Shown here: one piece after another, positions 1 to 6,674 of the stretch
How the letters are laid out: each line of letters starts with the position of its first letter
Numbering within the stretch: position 1 is the stretch's first letter
Source of the DNA: an uncultured Sphingomonas sp.
GTDB taxonomy: Bacteria; Pseudomonadota; Alphaproteobacteria; Sphingomonadales; Sphingomonadaceae
Direction of reading: 5' to 3'
NCBI GenBank assembly: GCA_946886645.1
Contig: CAMPIY010000095.1
Location: forward strand, 1 to 6,674
DNA: 6,674 bases
Notes under the pieces: generated by a model
Seen by the model: the letters and a program-made list of their open reading frames with translations, nothing else
What the model was told of the DNA's origin: nothing
Database searches by the model: none
Position numbers and translations under genes: made by a program

Positions 1-619
1 TGCGGATCTCCAGGAACTCCTCGATCTCCGGGTGCGAGACGTCGAGGTAGCAGGCCGCCGAGCCGCGCCGTAGCGAGCCTTGCGAAATGGCGAGCGTGAG
101 GCTGTCCATCACGCGAACGAAGGGGATGATGCCGCTGGTCTTGCCGTTAAGGCCGACCGGTTCGCCGATGCCGCGCACCGCGCCCCAATAGGTGCCGATG
201 CCGCCGCCCTTGGAGGCCAGCCAGACATTCTCGTTCCAAGTGTTGACGATTCCGTCCAGGCTGTCGTCGACGCTGTTCAGATAGCAGCTGATCGGCAGGC
301 CGCGGCCCGTTCCGCCGTTCGACAGCACGGGCGTCGCCGGCATGAACCACAGCTTCGAAATATAGTCATAGACGCGCTGGGCATGGCCGGCATCGTCCGC
401 ATAGGCCGAGGCGACGCGCGCGAAGAGGTCCTGATATTCCTCGCCAGGCAGTAGGTAGCGGTCGCGCAGCGTTTCCTTGCCGAATTCGGTCAGCAACGCG
501 TCGCGGCTCGAGTCGGTTTTGACGTCGAACTTCTTGGCGTCGACGGTCTTGCTGTCACGCTTGGTCTCGGTGACCGAAACGTCGTCGGAGCCTACATCGC
601 TCGAAGTTGCAAAATCCAT
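1..619 (-). CDS. nrdA: Ribonucleoside-diphosphate reductase, alpha (large) subunit, N-terminal part
   Basis: The large subunit of class I ribonucleotide reductase reduces ribonucleoside diphosphates to deoxyribonucleotides in the cytoplasm, together with a radical-generating beta subunit. Only the first 206 residues are in the window; the gene runs off the left edge. Visible family signatures are FGKETLRDRYLLPGE (46-60), MPATPVLSNGGTGRGLPISCYL (93-114), with Cys112 matching the catalytic half-cystine, then NTWNENVWLASKGGGIGTYWG, NGKTSGIIPFVRVMDS and SQGSLRRGSAACYLD. There is no room for an N-terminal ATP-cone before the catalytic fold: about 40 charged, low-complexity residues come first. The ATG at 619 gives MDFATSS; an in-frame ATG two codons upstream (625) is also possible. 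An AGGA-type ribosome site lies around 632-636, which slightly favours 625 by spacing. Upstream are a long leader and paired NrdR boxes, so repression by NrdR when dATP is plentiful is expected from the family. Confidence 0.95.
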   Translation of the reverse strand, partial: MDFATSSDVGSDDVSVTETKRDSKTVDAKKFDVKTDSSRDALLTEFGKETLRDRYLLPGEEYQDLFARVASAYADDAGHAQRVYDYISKLWFMPATPVLSNGGTGRGLPISCYLNSVDDSLDGIVNTWNENVWLASKGGGIGTYWGAVRGIGEPVGLNGKTSGIIPFVRVMDSLTLAISQGSLRRGSAACYLDVSHPEIEEFLEIR

Positions 620-772
620 CGTCATTCCCCGTCCTACTGGCCGTTCTGCGACGGCTTGTTCTGTTTCTGTTCGACTCGGTGCCATGGCGCCGAGACTAGC
701 CTAAAATCCTGTCCGCCGGGGGCTTTTCTTGGCCCATTCCCCGATATCCACAGGGCATGAGTGGGCCTGTGA

Positions 773-792
773 CGGAAGATAAGCATCTTCCG
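773..792 (-). promoter_or_regulatory. Perfect 8-bp hairpin in the nrdA leader
   Basis: CGGAAGAT (773-780), loop AAGC, then ATCTTCCG (785-792) form a perfect stem of eight pairs with a four-base loop. It lies between the NrdR boxes and the nrdA start, about 150 bases upstream of the start codon, so it would be in the transcribed leader. There is no T-run after it in the nrdA direction, so it does not look like an intrinsic terminator. A role in message stability or control is inference only. Confidence 0.4.
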
Positions 793-829
793 CCTCAACC
801 ACAATAGATTGAGCAGGCTCCCCCTTGGA

Positions 830-876
830 ACACGATATATAGTGGCCAAACGCGCGCGGGACGCAAGATATAAAAT
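830..876 (-). promoter_or_regulatory. Paired NrdR boxes controlling nrdA
   Basis: Box 1 is ACACGATATATAGTGG (830-845), matching the known consensus ACACWATATATWGTGT at 14 of 16 positions by eye. Box 2 is ACGCAAGATATAAAAT (861-876), a weaker match at 11 of 16. Their starts are exactly 31 bp apart, the three-helical-turn spacing known for NrdR box pairs. Box 1 contains a TATATA stretch that could serve as the -10 of the nrdA promoter reading leftward, so bound NrdR would block RNA polymerase. NrdR is the ATP/dATP-sensing repressor of ribonucleotide reductase genes in most bacteria. Its own gene is not in this window. Site identity is seen in sequence; repression is known for the family and inferred here. 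Confidence 0.85.
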
Positions 877-1024
877 TGACACCGCGTTAAATTTTTTGGG
901 TTCCCAGAGTATGATGTGTCCGCCCGGCCACGGGCTGGGCCGAGCCGGCGGCGGGCCGGTCTGCACTTGAAACCCCTATCCATGACGCCCATTGTCCCTG
1001 GTGCGGACCGGGCCCCTCTGGCGG

Positions 1025-1141
1025 GCGCTTCTCAAGCGCTCGTGATGTCGGACCGCATCGGAAGATTCCGGTGCGATGCGAGGACGGTTCAAACCTCTCC
1101 AAAGCACAGCACGGAAGCCTCCGATCGAACTTCGGTTTGAA
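1025..1141 (+). promoter_or_regulatory. Structured leader upstream of the DUF465 gene
   Basis: Three inverted repeats follow each other just before the small-gene pair. The first is GCGCTT-CTC-AAGCGC (1025-1039). The second is a stem of CGCATCGGA against TCCGGTGCG with a four-base loop (1054-1075), nine pairs including one G-T wobble; an alternative pairing joins CGCATCG (1054-1060) to CGATGCG (1074-1080). The third is TTCAAACC (1088-1095) with GGTTTGAA (1134-1141), perfect over eight pairs. The third stem ends directly beside the ribosome site AGGAG (1143-1147), and CCTCT (1094-1098) could instead pair with AGAGG (1141-1145) and hide it. This suggests a regulatory leader or a small RNA; neither is proven. 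It matches no riboswitch class I recognise. Confidence 0.35.
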
Positions 1142-1160
1142 GAGGAGAAGTGTAGTGACG

Positions 1161-1328
1161 ATGAGTATGTTCCTGTTGATGGAACGTCATGCCAGGATCG
1201 ACGATGCGCTGCGTACAGAGCAGCGCCGGCGCTTTCCCGATGTGTTCAGGATGCAGCAGCTCAAGAAGCTGAAGCTGGCCGTGAAGGACCGGCTTCATCG
1301 CCTGAGCCGCCGAAAGGTGGGTGGCTGA
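1161..1328 (+). CDS. Small YdcH/DUF465-family protein
   Basis: A 55-residue basic, helical protein with the DUF465 (YdcH) pattern: ERHARIDDALRTEQRRRFPD (8-27) followed by RMQQLKKLKLAVKDRLHRL (30-48), the typical charged helical hairpin ending in LKKxKLxxKDRL. The cellular role of this family is not established. The start is uncertain. The ribosome site AGGAG (1143-1147) is 13 bases from the ATG at 1161 but an ideal 7 bases from an in-frame GTG at 1155, which would add two residues (V-T). The ATG was kept because it begins the conserved part. The stop lies one base before the next gene's ATG, so the two small genes almost surely share a transcript. Confidence 0.8.
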   Translation: MSMFLLMERHARIDDALRTEQRRRFPDVFRMQQLKKLKLAVKDRLHRLSRRKVGG

Positions 1329-1329
1329 C

Positions 1330-1599
1330 ATGCTTTGCCCAACCTGCAAGACGCCGCTGACCATGTCGGAGCGGCAGGGAATCGAGATCGATTATTGCCA
1401 AAGCTGCCGGGGCGTGTGGCTCGACCGCGGAGAGCTCGACAAGATCATCGAGCGAAGCGCAGGCGCAAGCGCGCCGCCGCAGCAACAGATGCCGGCACCG
1501 CAGGGCTACCAACAGCCTTGGGGCGGGTCCGGCCACGGCCACGATCCGCGCTACCATAAGAAGCGCCGGAAAAGCTTCCTCGAAGAGCTGTTCGACTAG
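1330..1599 (+). CDS. zf-TFIIB-family zinc-ribbon protein
   Basis: An 89-residue protein with an N-terminal TFIIB-type zinc ribbon: MLCPTCKTPLT (1-11) and then DYCQSCRGVWLDRGELDKII (21-40). Cys3, Cys6, Cys23 and Cys26 are the likely metal ligands. The GVWLDRGELD block after the second CxxC is the hallmark of this family. The middle (about 47-66) is rich in Gln, Pro and Gly and probably disordered; the tail HKKRRKSFLEELFD is charged, with an amphipathic end. Function is unknown for the family, though nucleic-acid or protein binding is often supposed. The ATG at 1330 has AAGGTGG nine bases upstream; a GTG at 1321 would overlap that site and is less likely. The gene follows the DUF465 gene by one base and ends in a hairpin shared with the facing kinase gene. 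Confidence 0.88.
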   Translation: MLCPTCKTPLTMSERQGIEIDYCQSCRGVWLDRGELDKIIERSAGASAPPQQQMPAPQGYQQPWGGSGHGHDPRYHKKRRKSFLEELFD

Positions 1600-1609
1600 C
1601 TCTTCGAGG
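1578..1609. terminator. Bidirectional terminator hairpin between convergent genes
   Basis: CCTCGAAGAGCT (1578-1589) and AGCTCTTCGAGG (1598-1609) form a perfect 12-bp stem with an 8-base loop. Both convergent coding regions end inside it: the zinc-ribbon gene stops at 1597-1599 and the kinase gene at 1598-1596, sharing the palindrome CTAG. The kinase side is followed by a short T-run (AAGCTTTTCC when read leftward); the plus side has only a loose T/C-rich tract. So it is a plausible two-way terminator, stronger leftward, partly built from coding sequence. Confidence 0.65.
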
Positions 1610-2498
1610 GGCCGCTTCTCTGCGTCCGTTTCGTCTCAGGCGCATGGACGCGGAGCGCGCCGGGGCGGATTCGGTAATCGAGCGGCGGCGCCATCTCCAC
1701 GGTTTCGCCGTCGATCGACACGGTGAGATGGCGGCGGCCAGTCTCGACGCATAAATGCGTCAGGCCGTCCATCGTCACCATGTCGTCACGCCGCGTCCAT
1801 CCAGCCAGCGCGCGGAAGGTCGCGGCGAGGAAGCCGGGCACGCCCTTCTTGCGCATCACGAGGATGCACAGCTTCCCGTCGTCGAGCGCCTCGCGGCGCC
1901 CGGCGGCGGGCAGCGCGAGCTCGTAATCATTGTTGCCGACGAAGAGCAGGGGCGTGTCGACGCTGGACCGGCCTTCGCCCGTGGTCAGGATCAGGCGATG
2001 ATCGTGGAAGCGCGCCAGGGTGCGGAAGGATGCGACCAGCATCGCCAGCCGCTTCGACCGGCCGAGCCGGTGCTGCTGGCTTTCGCGGTCGACGACCATC
2101 AACGGATAGAGACCGATCGCGCTGTTGTTGACGAAGGTCCGGCCGTTGACCTCGGCAACGTCGACCGCGCGGATGTGACCCTCGGCAATCAGCGCCGCCG
2201 CCTGGTCCAGCTCGAACGGGATGCCGAGATCGCGGGCGAAATGGTTGAGCGTTCCCAGCGGCAGGATGCCGAGCGCCACGCTCGACCCCGCCACGGCTTG
2301 CGCGGCGGCGCCGACGCTTCCGTCACCGCCGCCGACGATGATCCGCTTTGCACCCTGCTCGACCAGTTGCTTCGCTCGAGCCGCAATGCGCTTACCCTCG
2401 ACCGCCTCGACCGGCCCTTCGATCCCGGCGGAGCGCAACACTTGCTCGACCGCAGCCCCGTTCGCCTTGCCGCGATTGATGATCGTCGCCGCTTCCAT
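1596..2498 (-). CDS. Diacylglycerol kinase-family lipid kinase
   Basis: A 300-residue cytoplasmic or membrane-associated lipid kinase of the DAGK catalytic family (with YegS/BmrU and sphingosine kinases), which moves the ATP gamma-phosphate to a lipid hydroxyl. Near-diagnostic motifs are IINRGKANG (6-14), the nucleotide-binding GGGDGS at 56-61 in IIVGGGDGSVG, and LPLGTLNHFARDLGIP (79-94). The C-terminal domain has VNNSAIGLYP, PLLFVGNNDYEL and a late VSIDGETVEM typical of this fold. Length is normal for the bacterial family. The lipid substrate cannot be told from sequence; diacylglycerol, sphingoid base and phosphatidylglycerol are all possible, and sphingolipid-bearing organisms make a sphingoid base worth considering. 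The ATG at 2498 has no clear ribosome site. The gene appears to be transcribed alone, with a hairpin upstream and a convergent neighbour downstream. Confidence 0.92.
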   Translation of the reverse strand: MEAATIINRGKANGAAVEQVLRSAGIEGPVEAVEGKRIAARAKQLVEQGAKRIIVGGGDGSVGAAAQAVAGSSVALGILPLGTLNHFARDLGIPFELDQAAALIAEGHIRAVDVAEVNGRTFVNNSAIGLYPLMVVDRESQQHRLGRSKRLAMLVASFRTLARFHDHRLILTTGEGRSSVDTPLLFVGNNDYELALPAAGRREALDDGKLCILVMRKKGVPGFLAATFRALAGWTRRDDMVTMDGLTHLCVETGRRHLTVSIDGETVEMAPPLDYRIRPGALRVHAPETKRTQRSGPSKS

Positions 2499-2529
2499 CG
2501 AAGCGTATCAATGACTGGGAAGCCCTAAC

Positions 2530-2569
2530 GCTCCTCCCCATCCCCGCTTTCGCGAGGACAGGGAGGAGC
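2530..2569. repeat. Palindromic intergenic element after the VOC gene
   Basis: GCTCCTCCC (2530-2538) pairs perfectly with GGGAGGAGC (2561-2569). Inside, TCCCCGC (2541-2547) pairs with GCGAGGA (2552-2558) around a TTTC loop with one mismatch. The whole forms a single long hairpin of about 15 pairs with a 2x2 internal loop. It lies eight bases after the VOC stop and before the kinase start. It lacks a T-run, so it resembles a REP-type stem or message-end stabiliser more than an intrinsic terminator. Confidence 0.55.
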
Positions 2570-2577
2570 TAGTGGGA

Positions 2578-2982
2578 TTAATCCGCCGGTCCGATGCAGA
2601 AGGCGGCGAGCTTGTTGCCGTCCAGATCGCGAAAATAGGCGCCGTAGAAGGCATCCGGCCCTTCCTCGCCGCGAACGCCCGGAGGGCCTTCGCACGTGCC
2701 GCCCAACTCCAGCGCCTTGGCGTGGAGCTTGTCGACATTGGCGCGCGATCCCGCGGCGATGGCGGCCATGTTTCCGTTGCCGGCCACCGCAGGCTGCTGG
2801 TTGTAGGGATTGGTCACCGCCAGGCCCGGCTTGTCGAAGCCGCTGCCCCACATGGTGAAGCCGCCCATGTCGTCGCCGAACTCCATGATCCGCTTCGAGC
2901 CGATCGTGCTACCGAGCAGCTCGTCATAGAATGCACGCGCACGGGGCATATTGTCGCTGCCGAGGGTTACGTAGCCGATCAT
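2578..2982 (-). CDS. VOC-family (glyoxalase/dioxygenase-fold) protein
   Basis: A 134-residue protein of the vicinal oxygen chelate superfamily, with two beta-alpha-beta-beta-beta halves: MIGYVTLGSDNMPRARAFYDELL (1-23) opens the first, and the second ends in AYFRDLDGNKLAAFCIG (115-131). These are the usual landmarks of the small glyoxalase-like group. The usual first-strand metal-ligand His is replaced by Tyr4-Val5-Thr6, so I cannot assert metal binding or lyase activity; no specific substrate can be named. The ATG at 2982 was chosen because AGGAG lies nine bases upstream and the conserved fold begins there; an open frame extends upstream to 3039 but adds unrelated residues. The gene stands alone between two palindromic elements. 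Confidence 0.88.
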   Translation of the reverse strand: MIGYVTLGSDNMPRARAFYDELLGSTIGSKRIMEFGDDMGGFTMWGSGFDKPGLAVTNPYNQQPAVAGNGNMAAIAAGSRANVDKLHAKALELGGTCEGPPGVRGEEGPDAFYGAYFRDLDGNKLAAFCIGPAD

Positions 2983-3049
2983 TTCCCGAGTCTCCTGCTT
3001 ATGTCGAATAGCGAACATAGCAGGAACAAATGGCCGCACAAGCCGTCAT

Positions 3050-3140
3050 CCTCACCCTTCCGGCACTCCGCGCCTCCTTCCCTCTCCCCTGGGAGAGGGA
3101 TGAGCGCCCCGGACTTGATCCGGGGAGCGAGAGGGTGAGG
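3050..3140. repeat. Composite REP-like palindromic element
   Basis: An outer inverted repeat, CCTCACCCT (3050-3058) with AGGGTGAGG (3132-3140), is perfect over nine pairs and encloses two inner hairpins. These are CCCTCTCCC (3080-3088) with GGGAGAGGG (3091-3099), nearly loopless, and CCCCGGA (3107-3113) with TCCGGGG (3119-3125) around CTTGA. The nested layout would fold into a branched structure like the paired REPs of BIMEs. The CCCCGGACTTGATCCGGGG-type core is one I recall as common between genes in sphingomonads, but I cannot count copies from one window. It lies between the lipoprotein stop (3147) and the VOC start (2982), so it may protect or end the lipoprotein transcript. Confidence 0.65.
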
Positions 3141-3146
3141 TCGACC

Positions 3147-3671
3147 TTAGCTAGCCTTCGCCGGCTCCGCGGCCCCACCCGCGGGGCAATCGCCGACGCG
3201 CTTGGCGCTGACCTTGCGGGTCATTCGATAGTCGCCGTCCTCGATGAAATAGGTCAGCGAGGTGATGTCGCCTTCGAAGCTGTCCGCCTTGAAGCTGCCC
3301 ATCATCGCCGGCATCACTTCGCCGCGCTTGCTTTCGCGCTTGCAGCTCATCTGCGCGCTGATGCGGCCGTAATGGATGTAGCTGTTCTTCATCTCGCACT
3401 TGTCGGCCGCATCTTCGGCAAACAGTTCCGGCGCGGGCTTGCCGTCCGCAGCGACGCAGGCCTTGACCACCATCTTGTCGCCTTCCTTGGCCTTGGTGGC
3501 GGGGGTCGTCTTGTCCGTCGAGGACAGGCCGGTCACTTCTGATGTCAGCTCGTAAAGGCCGGGCTTCAGCGCATCGGCGGCCTCTTCCTTGGCCGGGTCA
3601 GGCTTCTCGCCGCCGCACGCCGCCAGCATCATCGCCGCGCCGATCACCGGCGCCCATTTCATGCCACGCAT
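3147..3671 (-). CDS. DUF3617-family lipoprotein (outer-membrane type signal)
   Basis: A 174-residue predicted lipoprotein. Arg2 and Lys5, then a hydrophobic stretch, lead to the lipobox LAAC (16-19); Cys19 would be lipidated and +2 is Gly, compatible with transfer to the outer membrane. The mature part shows the DUF3617 plan: KPGLYELTSEVTG (36-48) near the start, then Cys72, Cys92, Cys110 and Cys162, with RKVSAKRVGDC at the end of the domain. The four cysteines probably make two disulfides in the periplasm. The family has no settled function. The start at 3671 is preceded by GGGAGGGG about five bases away; Met4 is a possible alternative. It is 21 bp downstream of a paralogue with nearly the same cysteine spacing, so the pair is a likely operon from tandem duplication. 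Confidence 0.85.
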   Translation of the reverse strand: MRGMKWAPVIGAAMMLAACGGEKPDPAKEEAADALKPGLYELTSEVTGLSSTDKTTPATKAKEGDKMVVKACVAADGKPAPELFAEDAADKCEMKNSYIHYGRISAQMSCKRESKRGEVMPAMMGSFKADSFEGDITSLTYFIEDGDYRMTRKVSAKRVGDCPAGGAAEPAKAS

Positions 3672-3692
3672 ATCTTCCCCTCCCTGTTCAAA

Positions 3693-4265
3693 TCAGTTGG
3701 TTGCGACCTTCATCTCGCTTCCGTCGCATTCGCCGGTGCGCTTCGATGACACGCGCATCACCATCTTCATCGGCCCGGACGGCGATGCATTTTCCACGGA
3801 AGAGGCCATCCGCATCTCGTAGCTGTCCGGCGAGTAGGTGCCGTTGAAGTCGATCAGCTGCGTCCCGCCCTCCTGCGGGCTGGTGCAGCGCATGGTGCCG
3901 GTCATCTTGCCGCCGTCCATGCTGAACTTGTCGTAGCGGCAATTGCTGCTGGCCCCGGCGAAGAAATCCTCCTTGGGTTTCATCGCCTGTTCCTTGGTCA
4001 GGCAGGTCTTGTGGCCGGTCGCGACCCTGGCCATCGTTTTCTTCATCTGCGCCGCGAATTCGGGCGGCATGCCCGGAACCTCGACCGATTCCAGCTCGAC
4101 CGATGATAACCACTGGCCCGGATTGACGACCATCGCGCTGCCGCCATTGGCCTCCCGAACCTTCCCCGCGACCTCCTCGATGCTGGCATTCTCCGCCTCG
4201 ACCTTCGGCGAATTGTCGCACGCCGCGAGGAAAAGCAGCGGCACGATCGGCAGATATTTATTCAT
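3693..4265 (-). CDS. DUF3617-family lipoprotein (inner-membrane retention type signal)
   Basis: A 190-residue predicted lipoprotein. Asn2-Lys3 precede a hydrophobic segment (4-12) and the lipobox LAAC (13-16). The residues after Cys16 are Asp-Asn, the classical Lol-avoidance signal in E. coli, so it may stay in the inner membrane, unlike its neighbour. The mature region contains NPGQWL (48-53), then Cys88, Cys109, Cys127 and Cys180, ending MRVSSKRTGEC. Cysteine spacings of 21, 18 and 53 compare with 20, 18 and 52 in the downstream gene, strong evidence of paralogy. About 40 extra residues precede the domain. The ATG at 4265 was chosen over upstream starts because it begins the signal peptide and has a G-rich site (AGGGGG) seven bases before it. 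It is first in a two-gene unit. Function is unknown. Confidence 0.86.
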   Translation of the reverse strand: MNKYLPIVPLLFLAACDNSPKVEAENASIEEVAGKVREANGGSAMVVNPGQWLSSVELESVEVPGMPPEFAAQMKKTMARVATGHKTCLTKEQAMKPKEDFFAGASSNCRYDKFSMDGGKMTGTMRCTSPQEGGTQLIDFNGTYSPDSYEMRMASSVENASPSGPMKMVMRVSSKRTGECDGSEMKVATN

Positions 4266-4315
4266 GTGGCAGCCCCCTGTCCGGCCCCTCGCCAGCGGGC
4301 GCAAAGCCTGCCGCC

Positions 4316-4343
4316 ACCATATGGGGATGAGCAGGCGATGCAA
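4316..4343 (-). promoter_or_regulatory. Candidate sigma-70 promoter of the lipoprotein pair
   Basis: Read leftward, TTGCAT (4343-4338) and TATGGT (4321-4316) are separated by 16 bp, each matching the consensus at four or more of six positions. Transcription would begin near 4309, leaving a leader of about 44 bases before the start at 4265. The match is moderate, and promoters in this group are often diverged, so this is a candidate only. Confidence 0.3.
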
Positions 4344-4363
4344 GGCGGAAGCGGGGGCTTGTG

Positions 4364-4489
4364 TCAGCCGAGGATTTGCAGGGCCGCGGCGAACGCCACG
4401 GGGTCGCGGGCCGGCAATGATGCCGGCTTCGGCTCGGCCAGGCGGCGTACCCGCGCGATGACTTGTTTCGATTTCTTGATGATTGTCAT
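4364..4489 (-). CDS. 41-aa basic small protein, coupled to the gene upstream
   Basis: A 41-residue protein with a strongly basic first half, MTIIKKSKQVIARVRRL (1-17), and a Pro/Ala-rich second half ending in VAFAAALQILG. I do not recognise a family. The case for it being real is its position: its ATG overlaps the TGA of the 69-aa gene as ATGA, and AGGA lies four bases before the ATG. It is the third member of a leftward cold-shock unit. A longer open frame in the same phase starting at 4738 runs across the coupled gene and looks artefactual. Possible roles, such as nucleic-acid binding by the basic stretch, are guesses. Confidence 0.55.
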   Translation of the reverse strand: MTIIKKSKQVIARVRRLAEPKPASLPARDPVAFAAALQILG

Positions 4490-4695
4490 TTTCCTGTGGG
4501 CGGCTCGGCCGCCTTCAATGCTTGATGCTGTTGCCGCTTGAGTTCGGTGGCGGCCGCCCGTTCCGCCAATTGGGTCCAGGCGGCCTCCGACCTCAGGCAA
4601 CGGTCCCGGACATGGGACAATGTCGCCACCTCGGCGTCCTCGCGCGCCTGACCGGCGCGGTCGAGATAGAATTGCAGTGTGTTGTAATTCGCCAA
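4486..4695 (-). CDS. 69-aa helical small protein with TTG start, downstream of the cold-shock gene
   Basis: A 69-residue, probably all-helical charged protein: NYNTLQFYLDRAGQAREDAE (3-22), then ATLSHVRDRCLRSEAAW (24-40) and LAERAAATELKRQQ (43-56). It resembles short sphingomonad hypothetical proteins I remember, with regular Ala/Arg/Glu spacing, but has no named function. The start is a TTG at 4695, 11 bases after the cold-shock stop. There is no internal Met and no good ribosome site, so translation probably depends on ribosomes finishing the upstream gene. Its own stop overlaps the next start (ATGA). A 6-bp hairpin spans the end of the cold-shock gene just before it, which could lower its yield. 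Confidence 0.7.
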   Translation of the reverse strand: MANYNTLQFYLDRAGQAREDAEVATLSHVRDRCLRSEAAWTQLAERAAATELKRQQHQALKAAEPPTGK

Positions 4696-4706
4696 GGGAA
4701 GCCGTC

Positions 4707-4937
4707 TTACTGCGCTTCTGGCGCAGCCTGCTCTTCAAGCTTCAGGTTGCCGGCGCTCATCTTGCCCGGGCGATCCTGCTGCAGCTCGTACGATAGCCGC
4801 TGGCCCTGGCCGAGCGTCCGCATGCCCGCGCGTTCGACGGCGCTGATGTGGACGAAGGCGTCGGGTGTGCCGTCTTCGGGCTGGATGAAACCAAAGCCCT
4901 TGGTGTCGTTAAAGAATTTTACGGTGCCGATCGGCAT
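4707..4937 (-). CDS. Cold-shock-domain protein (CspA family)
   Basis: A 76-residue single cold-shock domain, a five-stranded OB fold that binds single-stranded RNA and DNA and melts RNA structure. RNP1 is visible as KGFGFI (13-18) and RNP2 as FVHIS (28-32), after the conserved MPIGTVKFFND. Aromatic residues Phe8, Phe9, Phe15, Phe17, Phe28 and His30 line the usual binding face. About ten extra residues (EEQAAPEAQ region) form a tail. The start at 4937 is preceded by AAGGA with eight-base spacing. Further upstream is a hairpin (4956-4978) and an AT-rich promoter region, giving a leader of around 115 bases, as in many cold-shock messages whose structure controls translation. It heads a leftward unit with two tiny genes. 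Whether it is truly cold-induced cannot be told. Confidence 0.95.
   Translation of the reverse strand: MPIGTVKFFNDTKGFGFIQPEDGTPDAFVHISAVERAGMRTLGQGQRLSYELQQDRPGKMSAGNLKLEEQAAPEAQ
4710..4726 (-). other. Hairpin at the cold-shock gene stop codon
   Basis: CTGCGC (4710-4715) and GCGCAG (4721-4726) pair perfectly around TTCTG, ending right at the TAA of the cold-shock gene (4707-4709). No T-run follows, so it is not a standard terminator. It may pause or attenuate expression of the two small genes beyond it. Confidence 0.3.
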
Positions 4938-5226
4938 TTCACTTTTCCTTCTGATGGGAATCCGGACATCGGGTTCCCGAATGCCAAGAGCAGCTTGTAG
5001 AAGGAGAGAGGAGCCGCAAAGCGCCAAAAACCGTCAAATTGCGACTAGTAGCGTTGAGATATATAGCAGAAAAATTCCAAATTGTAAGTCACGCTCGGAA
5101 CAAATCTTCAATTAGGATAAAATCCCTGGCCGTGTTATAACAAATTATTGCACGATATTTTTCTTAAGCAACCGCGCAACCGAGAGACGTTTTTTGTGCT
5201 CCCGCTTTCCAGCATGGAGCATATTT
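4938..5226. other. AT-rich divergent control region between the cold-shock unit and the small-gene cluster
   Basis: No protein gene is supported here. From 5041 to 5160 only about 36 percent of bases are G or C by hand count, far below the surrounding coding sequence. The left part (4938 to about 5052) is probably the cold-shock leader, with an imperfect hairpin at 4956-4978 whose GGGAA/TTCCC and CCG/CGG arms surround GACAT. The right part contains a perfect 10-bp palindrome TGTTATAACA (5133-5142) and GGATAAAATCC (5115-5125), which could be protein-binding sites. A rightward promoter must exist for the small genes starting at 5227, but I could not single one out. Confidence 0.55.
5060..5088 (-). 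promoter_or_regulatory. Candidate promoter of the cold-shock unit
   Basis: Read leftward, CTTACA (5088-5083) and TATATA (5065-5060) are 17 bp apart, each four of six to the sigma-70 consensus. The start of transcription would fall near 5052, about 115 bases before the cold-shock ATG. The surrounding AT-richness supports a promoter, but another hexamer pair could be the true one. Confidence 0.35.
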
Positions 5227-5388
5227 ATGGATCTCAACTATCTCTTGCAGAGATATTCTGTCTCCCTCCACATGTCCGAGAATGCCGCCTGCGGTTGCTC
5301 GCGTCTGGCGCACCGCGACCTGGCCAAAGGCTATGCGGCGAAAATCGCGCAAGCGAAGCTGCAGAACCGGCGAGAAGCGGTCTTGTGA
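5227..5388 (+). CDS. 53-aa small protein, first of the plus-strand cluster
   Basis: A 53-residue protein, MDLNYLLQRYSVSLHMSENA (1-20), then SRLAHRDLAKGYAAKI (25-40). It resembles short MDLNxL...AH.xLAxGYAxxI hypotheticals that I associate with sphingomonads; function is unknown. There is no signal peptide or membrane segment, and it is probably helical. The ATG at 5227 has GGAG (5216-5219) seven bases before it, better than an upstream in-frame ATG at 5194 with no such site. Its TGA overlaps the next gene's GTG as GTGA (5385-5388). It follows the AT-rich divergent region and heads the cluster. Confidence 0.75.
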   Translation: MDLNYLLQRYSVSLHMSENAACGCSRLAHRDLAKGYAAKIAQAKLQNRREAVL

Positions 5389-5561
5389 TTCCGGAGCTGA
5401 CCGCCAGAGAGACCGCTGATGGCTTGAGGGAGCAGGCGGCTTCGTGCCGTCGGTTGGCCAGGCGGGCCTCGACGTCGCGGGGTTCCTTGGCCTTGGCTGC
5501 CGTCGCCGAGTTTTTCGACACCGACGCACGGCGGATCGACCCGCTGAGTGAACGCAGATGA
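5385..5561 (+). CDS. 58-aa helical small protein, coupled second gene
   Basis: A 58-residue protein with core LREQAASCRRLARRAST (14-30), then LALAAVAEFFDTDARRID (35-52). The LREQAxxCRRLAR...L...A..F...A..I pattern is one I recall in small alphaproteobacterial hypothetical proteins, probably a two-helix hairpin. Function is unknown. The GTG start at 5385 overlaps the stop of the previous gene by 4 bp. The same phase is open back to 5148, but that longer frame overruns the 53-aa gene and has no ribosome site. Its own stop overlaps the next ATG (ATGA, 5558-5561). The coupling on both sides makes this reading more likely than chance. Confidence 0.7.
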   Translation: MIPELTARETADGLREQAASCRRLARRASTSRGSLALAAVAEFFDTDARRIDPLSERR

Positions 5562-5734
5562 TAGGCCGGCATGTAGGCATCATCGAACGCGCCTTCGAGC
5601 TGGCTGGGCATTCGGCAAACGTCGAAGAGATCAGGTCACAGCTGAAAAGGGAGGGATATTTCAACGTCGATGCCCACCTCATAGGCAGGAAAATCCGGTC
5701 CGACCTGGTCAAGATCATCAGGCGCGCGGCCTAG
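5558..5734 (+). CDS. 58-aa small protein, coupled third gene
   Basis: A 58-residue protein that is easily missed for length. It starts MIGRHVGIIERAFELAGHSA (1-20), continues EEIRSQLKREGYFNVDAHL (23-41) and ends IGRKIRSDLVKIIRRAA (42-58). The IERAFELA...EIR..L..EGY..VDAHL.G..IR.DL layout recalls sphingomonad hypotheticals and could be a compact helical or helix-turn-helix-like fold. That is inference; I know no function. The ATG overlaps the preceding stop (ATGA). It ends in TAG, then 54 bases pass before the next gene, with a short hairpin between. Codon use is GC-rich at third positions, like neighbouring genes. Confidence 0.72.
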   Translation: MIGRHVGIIERAFELAGHSANVEEIRSQLKREGYFNVDAHLIGRKIRSDLVKIIRRAA

Positions 5735-5742
5735 GAGACACA

Positions 5743-5755
5743 CCGCAGCATGCGG
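5743..5755 (+). terminator. Short hairpin between small genes, possible weak terminator
   Basis: CCGCA (5743-5747), loop GCA, TGCGG (5751-5755), followed by a loosely T-rich tract CTTCCATTTTGC. Five pairs make a weak stem, so partial termination or a processing site between the first three and last two small genes is the most one can say. Confidence 0.25.
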
Positions 5756-5788
5756 CTTCCATTTTGCTCGTTTCAAGGAAATTTCATC

Positions 5789-5941
5789 ATGGCAGCAGCA
5801 CAGAAGGACTGGGTCTCGAAAACCGAGCTGGAAAAATACGGCATCGTGACCGTTCCATTGCAGGTCTTCCTATGGGGCGGTTATCGCTACACCAATGCGC
5901 GCGACGCTCTTGCCGCCGCCAAGCGGGCAGATCCCCGGTGA
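5789..5941 (+). CDS. 50-aa small protein, fourth of the cluster
   Basis: A 50-residue soluble protein with MAAAQKDWVSKTELEKYGIV (1-20), PLQVFLWGGYRYTNARDALA (23-42) and an AAKRADPR tail. The aromatic VFLWGGYRYTNAxDALAAAKR block looks like a folded motif I recall in alphaproteobacterial small hypotheticals; no function is known. The ATG at 5789 has AAGGAA eight bases upstream, the best ribosome site in the cluster, so it can be started independently of the three genes before it. Its stop overlaps the next start (GTGA, 5938-5941). An in-frame ATG at 5750 lies in the intergenic hairpin and is less likely. Confidence 0.75.
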   Translation: MAAAQKDWVSKTELEKYGIVTVPLQVFLWGGYRYTNARDALAAAKRADPR

Positions 5942-6162
5942 CCCGTGCCATCCACCTTTCCATGCGGGAAGCCGACGTTGTTTCCCGCTGCCTGACCGAG
6001 CGGGTCGGCGTCTCGACGATTGAACAGCTGCCGGCGGGTGGCGTGCGGCTGGTCTGCATGAGCGTCAAGGGAGCCGAGATTATCAGGCACAAGCTCAAGT
6101 CACATGTGATCAAGGGTGAGGTGAAAAGGGAACGCCGCAGGCCCACGCGGCCCCTTTGGTAA
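5938..6162 (+). CDS. 74-aa small protein with basic tail, last of the cluster
   Basis: A 74-residue protein. [20 protein letters not shown] (5-24) is likely a helix, [12 protein letters not shown] (31-42) a strand pair, and [16 protein letters not shown] (45-60) a helix, followed by a very basic tail [14 protein letters not shown]. Similar REA...L..GG.RLV.....A..IR..LK..LIKG.V sequences occur as small sphingomonad hypotheticals as far as I remember. Nucleic-acid binding is suggested only by charge. The GTG at 5938 overlaps the previous stop by 4 bp; an ATG at 5962 is an alternative but would drop conserved-looking residues. uvrB begins 52 bases later on the same strand with its own promoter-like sequence, so it may or may not be in the same transcript. 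Confidence 0.72.
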
Positions 6163-6179
6163 GCCTTGCCACAACCGAA

Positions 6180-6208
6180 TTGCCCGACGCGCTCCGCGTC
6201 CCCATATT
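6180..6208 (+). promoter_or_regulatory. Candidate uvrB promoter
   Basis: TTGCCC (6180-6185) and CATATT (6203-6208) have the ideal 17-bp spacing. Transcription would begin around 6215, the A of the uvrB ATG, implying a leaderless message. No alphaproteobacterial LexA site (GTTC or GAAC repeated with a seven-base gap) is visible between 6163 and 6214. Confidence 0.35.
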
Positions 6209-6214
6209 CCCCGC

Positions 6215-6674
6215 ATGGCCATTCAGATCCGCACCTCGCTCGCCGAGCCCGAGACCGGGGACACCTTCGTTCCGCATCGCCCGGCGCGGCCCGACAAGGC
6301 GGAGGGGGGCAAGCGGTTCGTCCTGAAATCCGACTATAGCCCTGCCGGCGACCAGCCGACCGCGATCAAGGAGCTGGTCGAGGGCATCCGAGAAAATGGC
6401 GAGGTGAACCAGGTGCTGCTGGGCGTCACCGGCTCAGGCAAGACCTATACGATGGCGCAGGTGATCGAGGCGACGCAGCGGCCGGCGCTGGTGCTGGCGC
6501 CGAACAAGATCCTCGCCGCCCAGCTCTATGGCGAGTTCAAGAGTTTCTTCCCCGACAACGCCGTCGAATATTTCGTCAGCTACTACGACTATTACCAGCC
6601 CGAGGCCTACGTGCCCCGGACCGACACCTACATCGAGAAGGAAAGCTCGGTGAACGAGGCGATCGACCGGATGC
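6215..6674 (+). CDS. uvrB: Excinuclease ABC subunit B, N-terminal part
   Basis: UvrB is the damage-verifying helicase-like subunit of nucleotide excision repair. It is loaded by UvrA and directs UvrC to cut both sides of the lesion. The first 153 residues are present; the gene leaves the right edge. Visible are [20 protein letters not shown] (35-54), Walker A GVTGSGKT (70-77), [20 protein letters not shown] (92-111), the beta-hairpin region [12 protein letters not shown] (123-134) and [13 protein letters not shown]. About 30 extra residues precede the usual start of the domain, since the Walker A lies near residue 39 in E. coli. The ATG at 6215 has no ribosome site, fitting the promoter spacing for a leaderless transcript; a start nearer the conserved region cannot be excluded. 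Confidence 0.97.

Follow-up and report, generated by a model that had tools for sequence, protein, structure and literature searches.

A predicted pseudoknotted leader RNA shared by an operon of tiny genes and by other small genes of Sphingomonadaceae

What do seven very small genes without a nameable function, packed on both strands around a cold-shock gene of an uncultured Sphingomonas sp., have in common? The genes, m1 and m2 on the minus strand beside the cold-shock gene csp and p1 to p5 on the plus strand, lie in a stretch of 6,674 nucleotides (nt) (GenBank assembly GCA_946886645.1, contig CAMPIY010000095.1, positions 1 to 6,674; hereafter the window), and a preliminary description made from the sequence alone had proposed them as an undescribed system. 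Our results support, with a probability of roughly 0.7, a model in which the p1-p5 operon belongs to a post-transcriptional regulon whose genes, mostly tiny, share a pseudoknotted leader RNA, and this leader probably controls translation of the messages downstream of it. Comparison of many copies supports a structured leader with a pseudoknot, a characteristic spacing to promoter and start codon and recurrence before unrelated genes; folding and complementarity, in turn, suggest on/off switching.

The element came to light in a DNA alignment as a block upstream of seven p1 genes that is as conserved as the genes themselves, and a motif scan placed the same block before other genes as well. A covariance model, R1, built without the pseudoknot from 21 leader copies chosen with the motif (set A3), finds the element in the window (58.5 bits, E 1.6e-12; the window is one of the training copies) and retrieves, across 91 sources, 105 copies with E ≤ 5e-6, rising to 110 with E ≤ 0.01; the sources are the window and 90 loci chosen for a prior R1 match, so that the counts do not give a rate, and locus L115 repeats part of L158. 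In the predicted fold, helix P1 closes the 5' end, hairpin P2 consists of GAGAGAC/GYGCUCCC with an A.C mismatch and a bulged G, and the pseudoknot forms between the P1 loop and the bases directly 3' of P2. The parts of the element in the window are:

5147-5212, plus strand: leader RNA element, 66 nt
5148-5153, plus strand: 5' strand of helix P1, pairing with 5174-5179; five of the six pairs form in the window
5166-5169, plus strand: 5' strand of the pseudoknot, AAGC, within the P1 loop, pairing with 5204-5207, with covariation
5174-5179, plus strand: 3' strand of helix P1, partner of 5148-5153
5182-5188, plus strand: 5' strand of hairpin P2, GAGAGAC, near-invariant, with the conserved A.C mismatch
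5196-5203, plus strand: 3' strand of hairpin P2, GTGCTCCC, which is also the anti-Shine-Dalgarno strand of a predicted alternative pairing
5204-5207, plus strand: 3' strand of the pseudoknot, GCTT, pairing with 5166-5169

Covariation argues for this fold at the level of RNA. In A3, 11 of the 18 pairs show changes on both sides, and the covariation score was reached by none of 500 shuffles. For the 105 members of set A5 the score was 0.306, compared with 0.172 after shuffling and 0.037-0.075 when columns were displaced by 1-3 (slid controls), and again none of 500 shuffles reached it; all six P1 pairs have changes on both sides, and pseudoknot pair 24-86 is C-G in 46 and U-A in 40 of 103 distinct rows. 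Set A10, with twenty more copies taken from the class and phylum samples, gave 0.277 (0.157 shuffled, 0.022-0.092 slid). Among the 87 copies outside the training set, pair 24-86 is formed in 76 (shuffled mean 57.8); the four variable pseudoknot pairs are formed in 76, 86, 82 and 61 of the 87, each above its maximum in 1000 shuffles (65, 85, 81 and 60, respectively), and the two inner pairs are invariant.

The element also appears to sit at the very start of its message. Two promoter elements of the p1 operon precede it in the window:

5112-5117, plus strand: -35 element TTAGGA, assigned by position, with a weak TTG peak
5136-5141, plus strand: -10 element TATAAC, assigned by the placement of TATAAT-like hexamers

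Across 104 leaders, the weak TTG peak falls at -35 to -33 from leader base 1, the best TATAAT-like hexamer begins at -12, -11 or -10 in 72, and the base at -1 is a pyrimidine in 93%. Because the distance of these signals from leader base 1 is fixed, base 5147 is very probably the +1 of the p1 mRNA, read from a sigma70-like promoter. Toward the coding sequence, 92 of 101 copies have 7-17 nt between the end of the element and the start codon; these 101, of 109 distinct copies (A4), are those for which a first open reading frame (ORF) was assigned within 70 nt downstream, by a choice favouring ATG, a Shine-Dalgarno (SD) sequence and a short distance, which narrows the spread of spacings. The element shows the hallmark of a cis-regulatory leader, a conserved covarying structure at the 5' end of an mRNA, that end being placed by the promoter position. 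The conserved block does abut a promoter, as a promoter or operator acting at the level of DNA would, but this explanation is very improbable, given that P1 and the pseudoknot show compensatory changes that are lost on sliding by 1-3 columns and that the block lies downstream of the putative +1, within the stated distance of the start codon.

Membership of the small genes in EcfG or RpoH regulons was considered and set aside, with no consistent promoter signal. The EcfG promoter has the form GGAAC-N16-17-CGTT; motifs of this type occur in none of 28 p1, 44 csp, 41 m2, 4 p2, 3 p4 and 9 p5 upstream regions and in one of 24 p3 regions (shuffled mean 0.05-0.1). RpoH-type motifs were found in one of the 41 m2 and one of the 44 csp regions and in no other upstream region.

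How might such a leader act? The relevant site in the window is the following:

5216-5219, plus strand: SD sequence GGAG of p1; GGAGCATA (5216-5223) is complementary to TGTGCTCC (5195-5202)

In our model, transcription from a housekeeping-type promoter would start at element base 1, the RNA would form P1 and then P2, and AAGC of the P1 loop would pair with GCUU past P2. Such a fold, the conserved one, would engage GCUCCC in P2 and leave the ribosome site free (the on state); without the pseudoknot, GCUCCC would pair with GGAG(C) of the SD sequence, some 12 nt further downstream, and translation would be off by default. Overlaps between the genes would carry the control from p1 on to p2 and p3, with p4-p5 perhaps less tightly coupled given a gap of 54 nt. 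As the signal that stabilises the pseudoknot we favour a small molecule or a protein, or else co-transcriptional sensing of cold.

Folding without the pseudoknot gives the alternative helix of the window eight pairs and an anti-SD:SD pairing probability of 0.99998. The same probability exceeds 0.5 in 66 of 85 leaders folded with the pseudoknot ignored (these 85, among the 105 copies, have both a GGAG site and flanking sequence), and forcing P2, with the pseudoknot likewise ignored, costs a mean of 8.5 kcal/mol. The distance from the anti-SD strand to the GGAG downstream of it is 4-14 nt in 85 of 105 copies, and a C follows GGAG in 52 of 84 leaders, compared with 42 of 122 control starts.

Several observations weigh against a leader that switches translation in this way. 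No GGAG occurs within the 45 nt scanned in 20 of 105 copies, and a start codon could not be assigned in 8 of 109 distinct copies. At least five base pairs of SD complementarity are found in 63% of the leaders and in 43% of control SD sequences, a modest enrichment because any GGAG fits CUCC. Three striking copies (L231, L237 and L240) had suggested that the base following GGAGC varies together with the anti-SD strand; covariation of this kind was tested and is not significant (Fisher p 0.43; of 58 copies with GGAGC, the 28 with C/T versus G/A were tested). Because no covariation with that strand extends past GGAGC, the default-off state stays a prediction from folding and complementarity. ViennaRNA cannot score a pseudoknot, so that its folds do not rank the stabilities of the two states. 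In A3, a weaker measure that counts further pair types was reached by 8 of 500 shuffles, and in A5 the number of pairs with changes on both sides (13) was matched by 41 of 500. P2 pairs are mostly invariant and therefore neither support nor oppose P2. Finally, the target genes show no obvious metabolic theme that would point to a ligand.

A single C, GAGAGAC, the bulged G and GCUCCCGC are near-invariant in both A5 and A10. This invariance, together with target genes that have no evident common pathway, would also fit a trans-acting protein or base-pairing small RNA that reads the P2/bulge region, the pseudoknot merely presenting it. We consider such a partner possible but doubtful; the constraint on an anti-SD strand alone explains part of the invariance.

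If the leader controls translation, what does it control? The first ORF behind it has at most 100 residues in 79 of 101 copies (median 75, maximum 261), and 34 of the 101 first proteins have an MDLN-like N-terminus. Families of the window account for 49 of 104 first genes (33 p1-like, nine p5-like, five p4-like and two m2-like), at least four of these matches by construction, four of the family queries having come from post-leader genes; the other 55 match no window family. A domain scan of ten first proteins found a Crp-family regulator (L159), DUF1508 (L186), proteins resembling the C-terminal part of ParS/MbcA antitoxins (L153, L130) and, in L142, a receiver-like match of 18.3 bits, under the Pfam cutoff of 30.2. 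Leaders in L216 and L208 precede two DUF6894 genes, several further first genes appear Crp-like by eye, and DUF6894-like and Crp-like genes also stand behind the leader among the 20 wider copies. Because Crp-family regulators lie downstream of it, the leader may sit high in a response. By eye, two genomes have the leader (L116 2817-2878, L207 1501-1559) before proteins that share a zinc-finger-like HCIG...CPYC stretch.

The leader is present in at least 109 of 249 Sphingomonadaceae genomes, a lower bound because only 21 candidates were scored per genome. It was found in six of 40 genomes of the order, all six also in the family sample, in 12 of 337 genomes of the class and in 17 of 249 of the phylum; eight of the 12 and nine of the 17, in all 15 genomes, lie beyond the family sample. 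That sample is part of the family, so that some of the 15 could still be Sphingomonadaceae, but several have genomes of 7-9 Mb, and our guess from this size is that the wider copies reach other lineages, such as rhizobia. Genomes carry up to seven copies, a number found in one 5.4 Mb genome of the wider samples. A strict sequence pattern gave ten matches in nine of the 337 class genomes, compared with three for the reversed pattern; on visual inspection, three of these matches (L221, L224, L229) have neither P1 nor the placement of a leader, and the pattern is narrow, missing the leader of genome G001. Three copies from wider genomes (L205 1501-1583, L209 1501-1585, L214 1501-1588) bear an extra stem-loop on P2, a variation to be expected of a real structured RNA.

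We give even odds to a broader proposal, namely a new class of pseudoknotted translational switch across Sphingomonadaceae and in further lineages with large genomes, probably other alpha-proteobacteria, by which one signal would turn on Crp-family regulators, DUF6894 proteins and a set of uncharacterised micro-proteins that are unrelated to one another; these would form a regulon defined by RNA and serving a stress or metabolite not yet recognised. An orphan leader that is so widespread, and whose pseudoknot covaries, would provide the first common handle on many nameless tiny genes and should reveal when they are made; its trigger or ligand would identify the programme in which the small proteins act.

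The genes of the window around the leader are:

4364-4489, minus strand: m1, 41 aa, overlapping m2 by 4 bp; weak relatives in genomes G054 and G130
4486-4695, minus strand: m2, 69 aa, TTG start; family FYxxRxxxAR...VRxRCxRSEAAW
4707-4937, minus strand: csp, cold-shock domain protein of 76 aa (PF00313, E 2e-20, 72.8 bits against a cutoff of 27)
5227-5388, plus strand: p1, 53 aa; MDLNYL family, predicted two-helix hairpin
5385-5561, plus strand: p2, 58 aa, GTG start, overlapping p1 by 4 bp; relatives in L094-L096
5558-5734, plus strand: p3, 58 aa, overlapping p2 by 4 bp
5789-5941, plus strand: p4, 50 aa, beginning 54 nt past p3
5938-6162, plus strand: p5, 74 aa, GTG start, overlapping p4 by 4 bp

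All seven tiny frames are present around csp as first described, and the four exact 4-bp stop/start overlaps reported in both orientations are borne out, each an RTGA (ATGA, GTGA, ATGA and GTGA); p3 and p4 do not overlap. RTGA overlaps are frequent in bacterial operons and alone are therefore evidence of ordinary coupling only. In agreement with the preliminary description, which could name no function for the small proteins, none of the seven has a Pfam or NCBIfam family above cutoff, and csp belongs to its cold-shock domain family above cutoff.

The tiny frames appear to be real genes, because relatives occur in other Sphingomonadaceae genomes. Searches for homologues, whose absence had been set beforehand as a refuting outcome, found relatives of m2 in 161, of p1 (with a profile) in 49 and of p3 in 22 of the 249 Sphingomonadaceae genomes, as the idea of lineage-typical small genes had anticipated. 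Codon position 3 is the most frequent site of differences in every frame, as expected of purifying selection on the protein; the evidence is thinnest for m1 (two genomes, one compared pair) and p2 (three compared pairs). In a plasmid collection, m2 had one distant match and p5 three.

Could the seven proteins form a dedicated complex or undescribed system, to which the leader is incidental? Some associations do recur: in 26 of the 30 best m2 loci a csp gene precedes m2 in the same orientation, and p1, p2, p4 and p5 stand together in G146 (their order is broken up in G198). The families nevertheless combine variously, p3 and m2 differ widely in their spread over the 249 genomes, relatives of p1, p4, p5 and m2 are each elsewhere the first gene behind the leader, and over half of the first genes (the 55 of 104 noted above) match no family of the window, all of which makes such a complex quite improbable. 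Because the families are recombined between loci, the seven proteins are not one fixed seven-gene system; of the proposed undescribed system, unnamed small genes in coupled units are what stands.

Nor do the proteins share one predicted architecture. AlphaFold2 gives p1 as a two-helix hairpin (mean predicted local distance difference test score, pLDDT, 94.6), which fits the helical character ascribed to the set, but p5 is predicted as beta-alpha-beta-beta-alpha (mean pLDDT 80), and a fold search with p5 against the PDB returned nothing below E 0.09, only a general ferredoxin-like look. A similar look had suggested homology of p1 and m2; profile comparison (E 0.079, probability 0.7%) did not support it, and a single hairpin superfamily of p1, p2 and m2 was dropped accordingly.

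Does the neighbouring cold-shock gene point to the signal? A csp gene lies within 1.5 kb of 26 of 104 leaders and, without training copies, of 20 of 87, where chance would give about 0.4% (117 cold-shock domain matches in 29 genomes, about 94 Mb); neighbouring leaders within one locus are not independent, and counted by locus the non-training figure is 16 of 78. The csp gene of the window has a second, distinct conserved leader:

4938-5050, minus strand: csp mRNA leader, from an alignment of 13 csp leaders

This leader, GCTACYAGTCGCAAA...TTTGCGGCTCC...TTCCTTCT, is represented by 13 motif-selected cases among 59 csp upstream regions, and many other csp genes have a different type (GCTNACGTCGCNTGCGACGGA). 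As read from the sequence, CTCCTTCT (4999-5006) in the csp leader is complementary to the csp SD region at 4946-4952; the csp leader of the window has no Rfam match up to E 10. It differs from the p1-type leader, and the link to cold is one of position only. Where the preliminary description had inferred a common stress or RNA-related programme from a shared AT-rich divergent region, an RNA-related link to csp persists, but the part common to many of the genes is the 5' leader RNA and not the AT-rich region in itself.

The same data bear on a cold-responsive RNA thermosensor, in which the pseudoknot would be trapped co-transcriptionally in the cold (on) and an SD-sequestering hairpin would form at growth temperature; the logic of cspA is the model for such a cold-trapped on state. 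The excess of csp neighbours speaks for it, as do 5' structures that form ahead of SD synthesis and a P2 kept weak by the conserved A.C mismatch. We nonetheless hold it unlikely, if still deserving of weight: no csp appears in the flanking 1.5 kb of 78 of the 104 copies, the csp of the window has a different leader, and the p1-type leader is near-invariant in sequence (GAGAGAC...GYGCUCCC), whereas thermosensors usually conserve stability and not near-invariant sequence.

Is the element an already known one? Rfam 15 gave no match at the leaders at E ≤ 1 in the window and 16 leader loci, and at E ≤ 10, for the window and L121 leaders alone, chance-level matches only (potC, 14.1 bits against 44; mir-936, 17.2 against 110). 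The cspA thermoregulator (RF01766), a leader associated with cold shock, forms alternative structures at its SD sequence, comparable with those predicted here, but it does not match the leader RNA, and its sole weak match (25.6 bits against a cutoff of 78) lies over the csp locus of L158. In topology the leader RNA resembles the preQ1-II riboswitch, which embeds a hairpin between pseudoknot strands and acts at the ribosome site; it differs in sequence and lineage, has no Rfam match and places its SD sequence outside the pseudoknot. A cis-acting leader RNA is in itself a known kind, and neither this class nor its small-gene regulon, nor any account of DUF6894, was found described in the literature searched. 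A 2017 motif survey reportedly held 224 candidate motifs, and an earlier unnamed listing of the leader is possible.

Closest in layout are two alpha-proteobacterial elements, of neither of which, as of preQ1-II, the leader RNA is a member. SAM-II (the metA element, RF00521) is, in the passages of PMC1273637 that deal with it, a compact one-stem pseudoknotted 5' leader with a possible promoter start usually a few nt before it, and the leader RNA is likewise compact, pseudoknotted and abutting a promoter; it differs in its extra P2 hairpin and GAGAGAC/GYGCUCCC core, scanned leaders have no RF00521 match, and the first genes are not recognised methionine genes. The serC element (RF00517) is placed by the corresponding passages at a putative start site with a start codon at most 11 nt downstream and proposed SD sequestration (PMC1273637); these passages describe two stems before the serC-serA operon and no pseudoknot, and no Rfam match to it occurs at the leader RNA. 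The odc1 motif, an alpha-proteobacterial pseudoknotted leader controlling translation start and tested from Sphingomonas echinoides, has, according to the relevant parts of PMC8632094, a long hairpin and a conserved 11-codon upstream ORF and commonly precedes ornithine decarboxylase. The leader RNA, in contrast, has no conserved length of upstream ORF (11-codon frames number only five over 103 distinct elements), and its first ORFs, with at most 261 residues, are not ornithine decarboxylase, judged by size only.

Elsewhere in the window, a terC RNA (RF03067) lies at 1000-1060 on the plus strand (65.3 bits against a gathering cutoff of 39.9), upstream of short ORFs. At 3048-3142, one on each strand, are two whalefall-1-like matches below threshold (27.7 and 22.2 bits against 37), in a spacer with CTCCCC/GGGAG inverted repeats. 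Two adjoining lipoprotein genes occupy 3147-4343 on the minus strand, and the second has a 35%-identical relative in L103 (G245), about 5 kb from a relative of p3.

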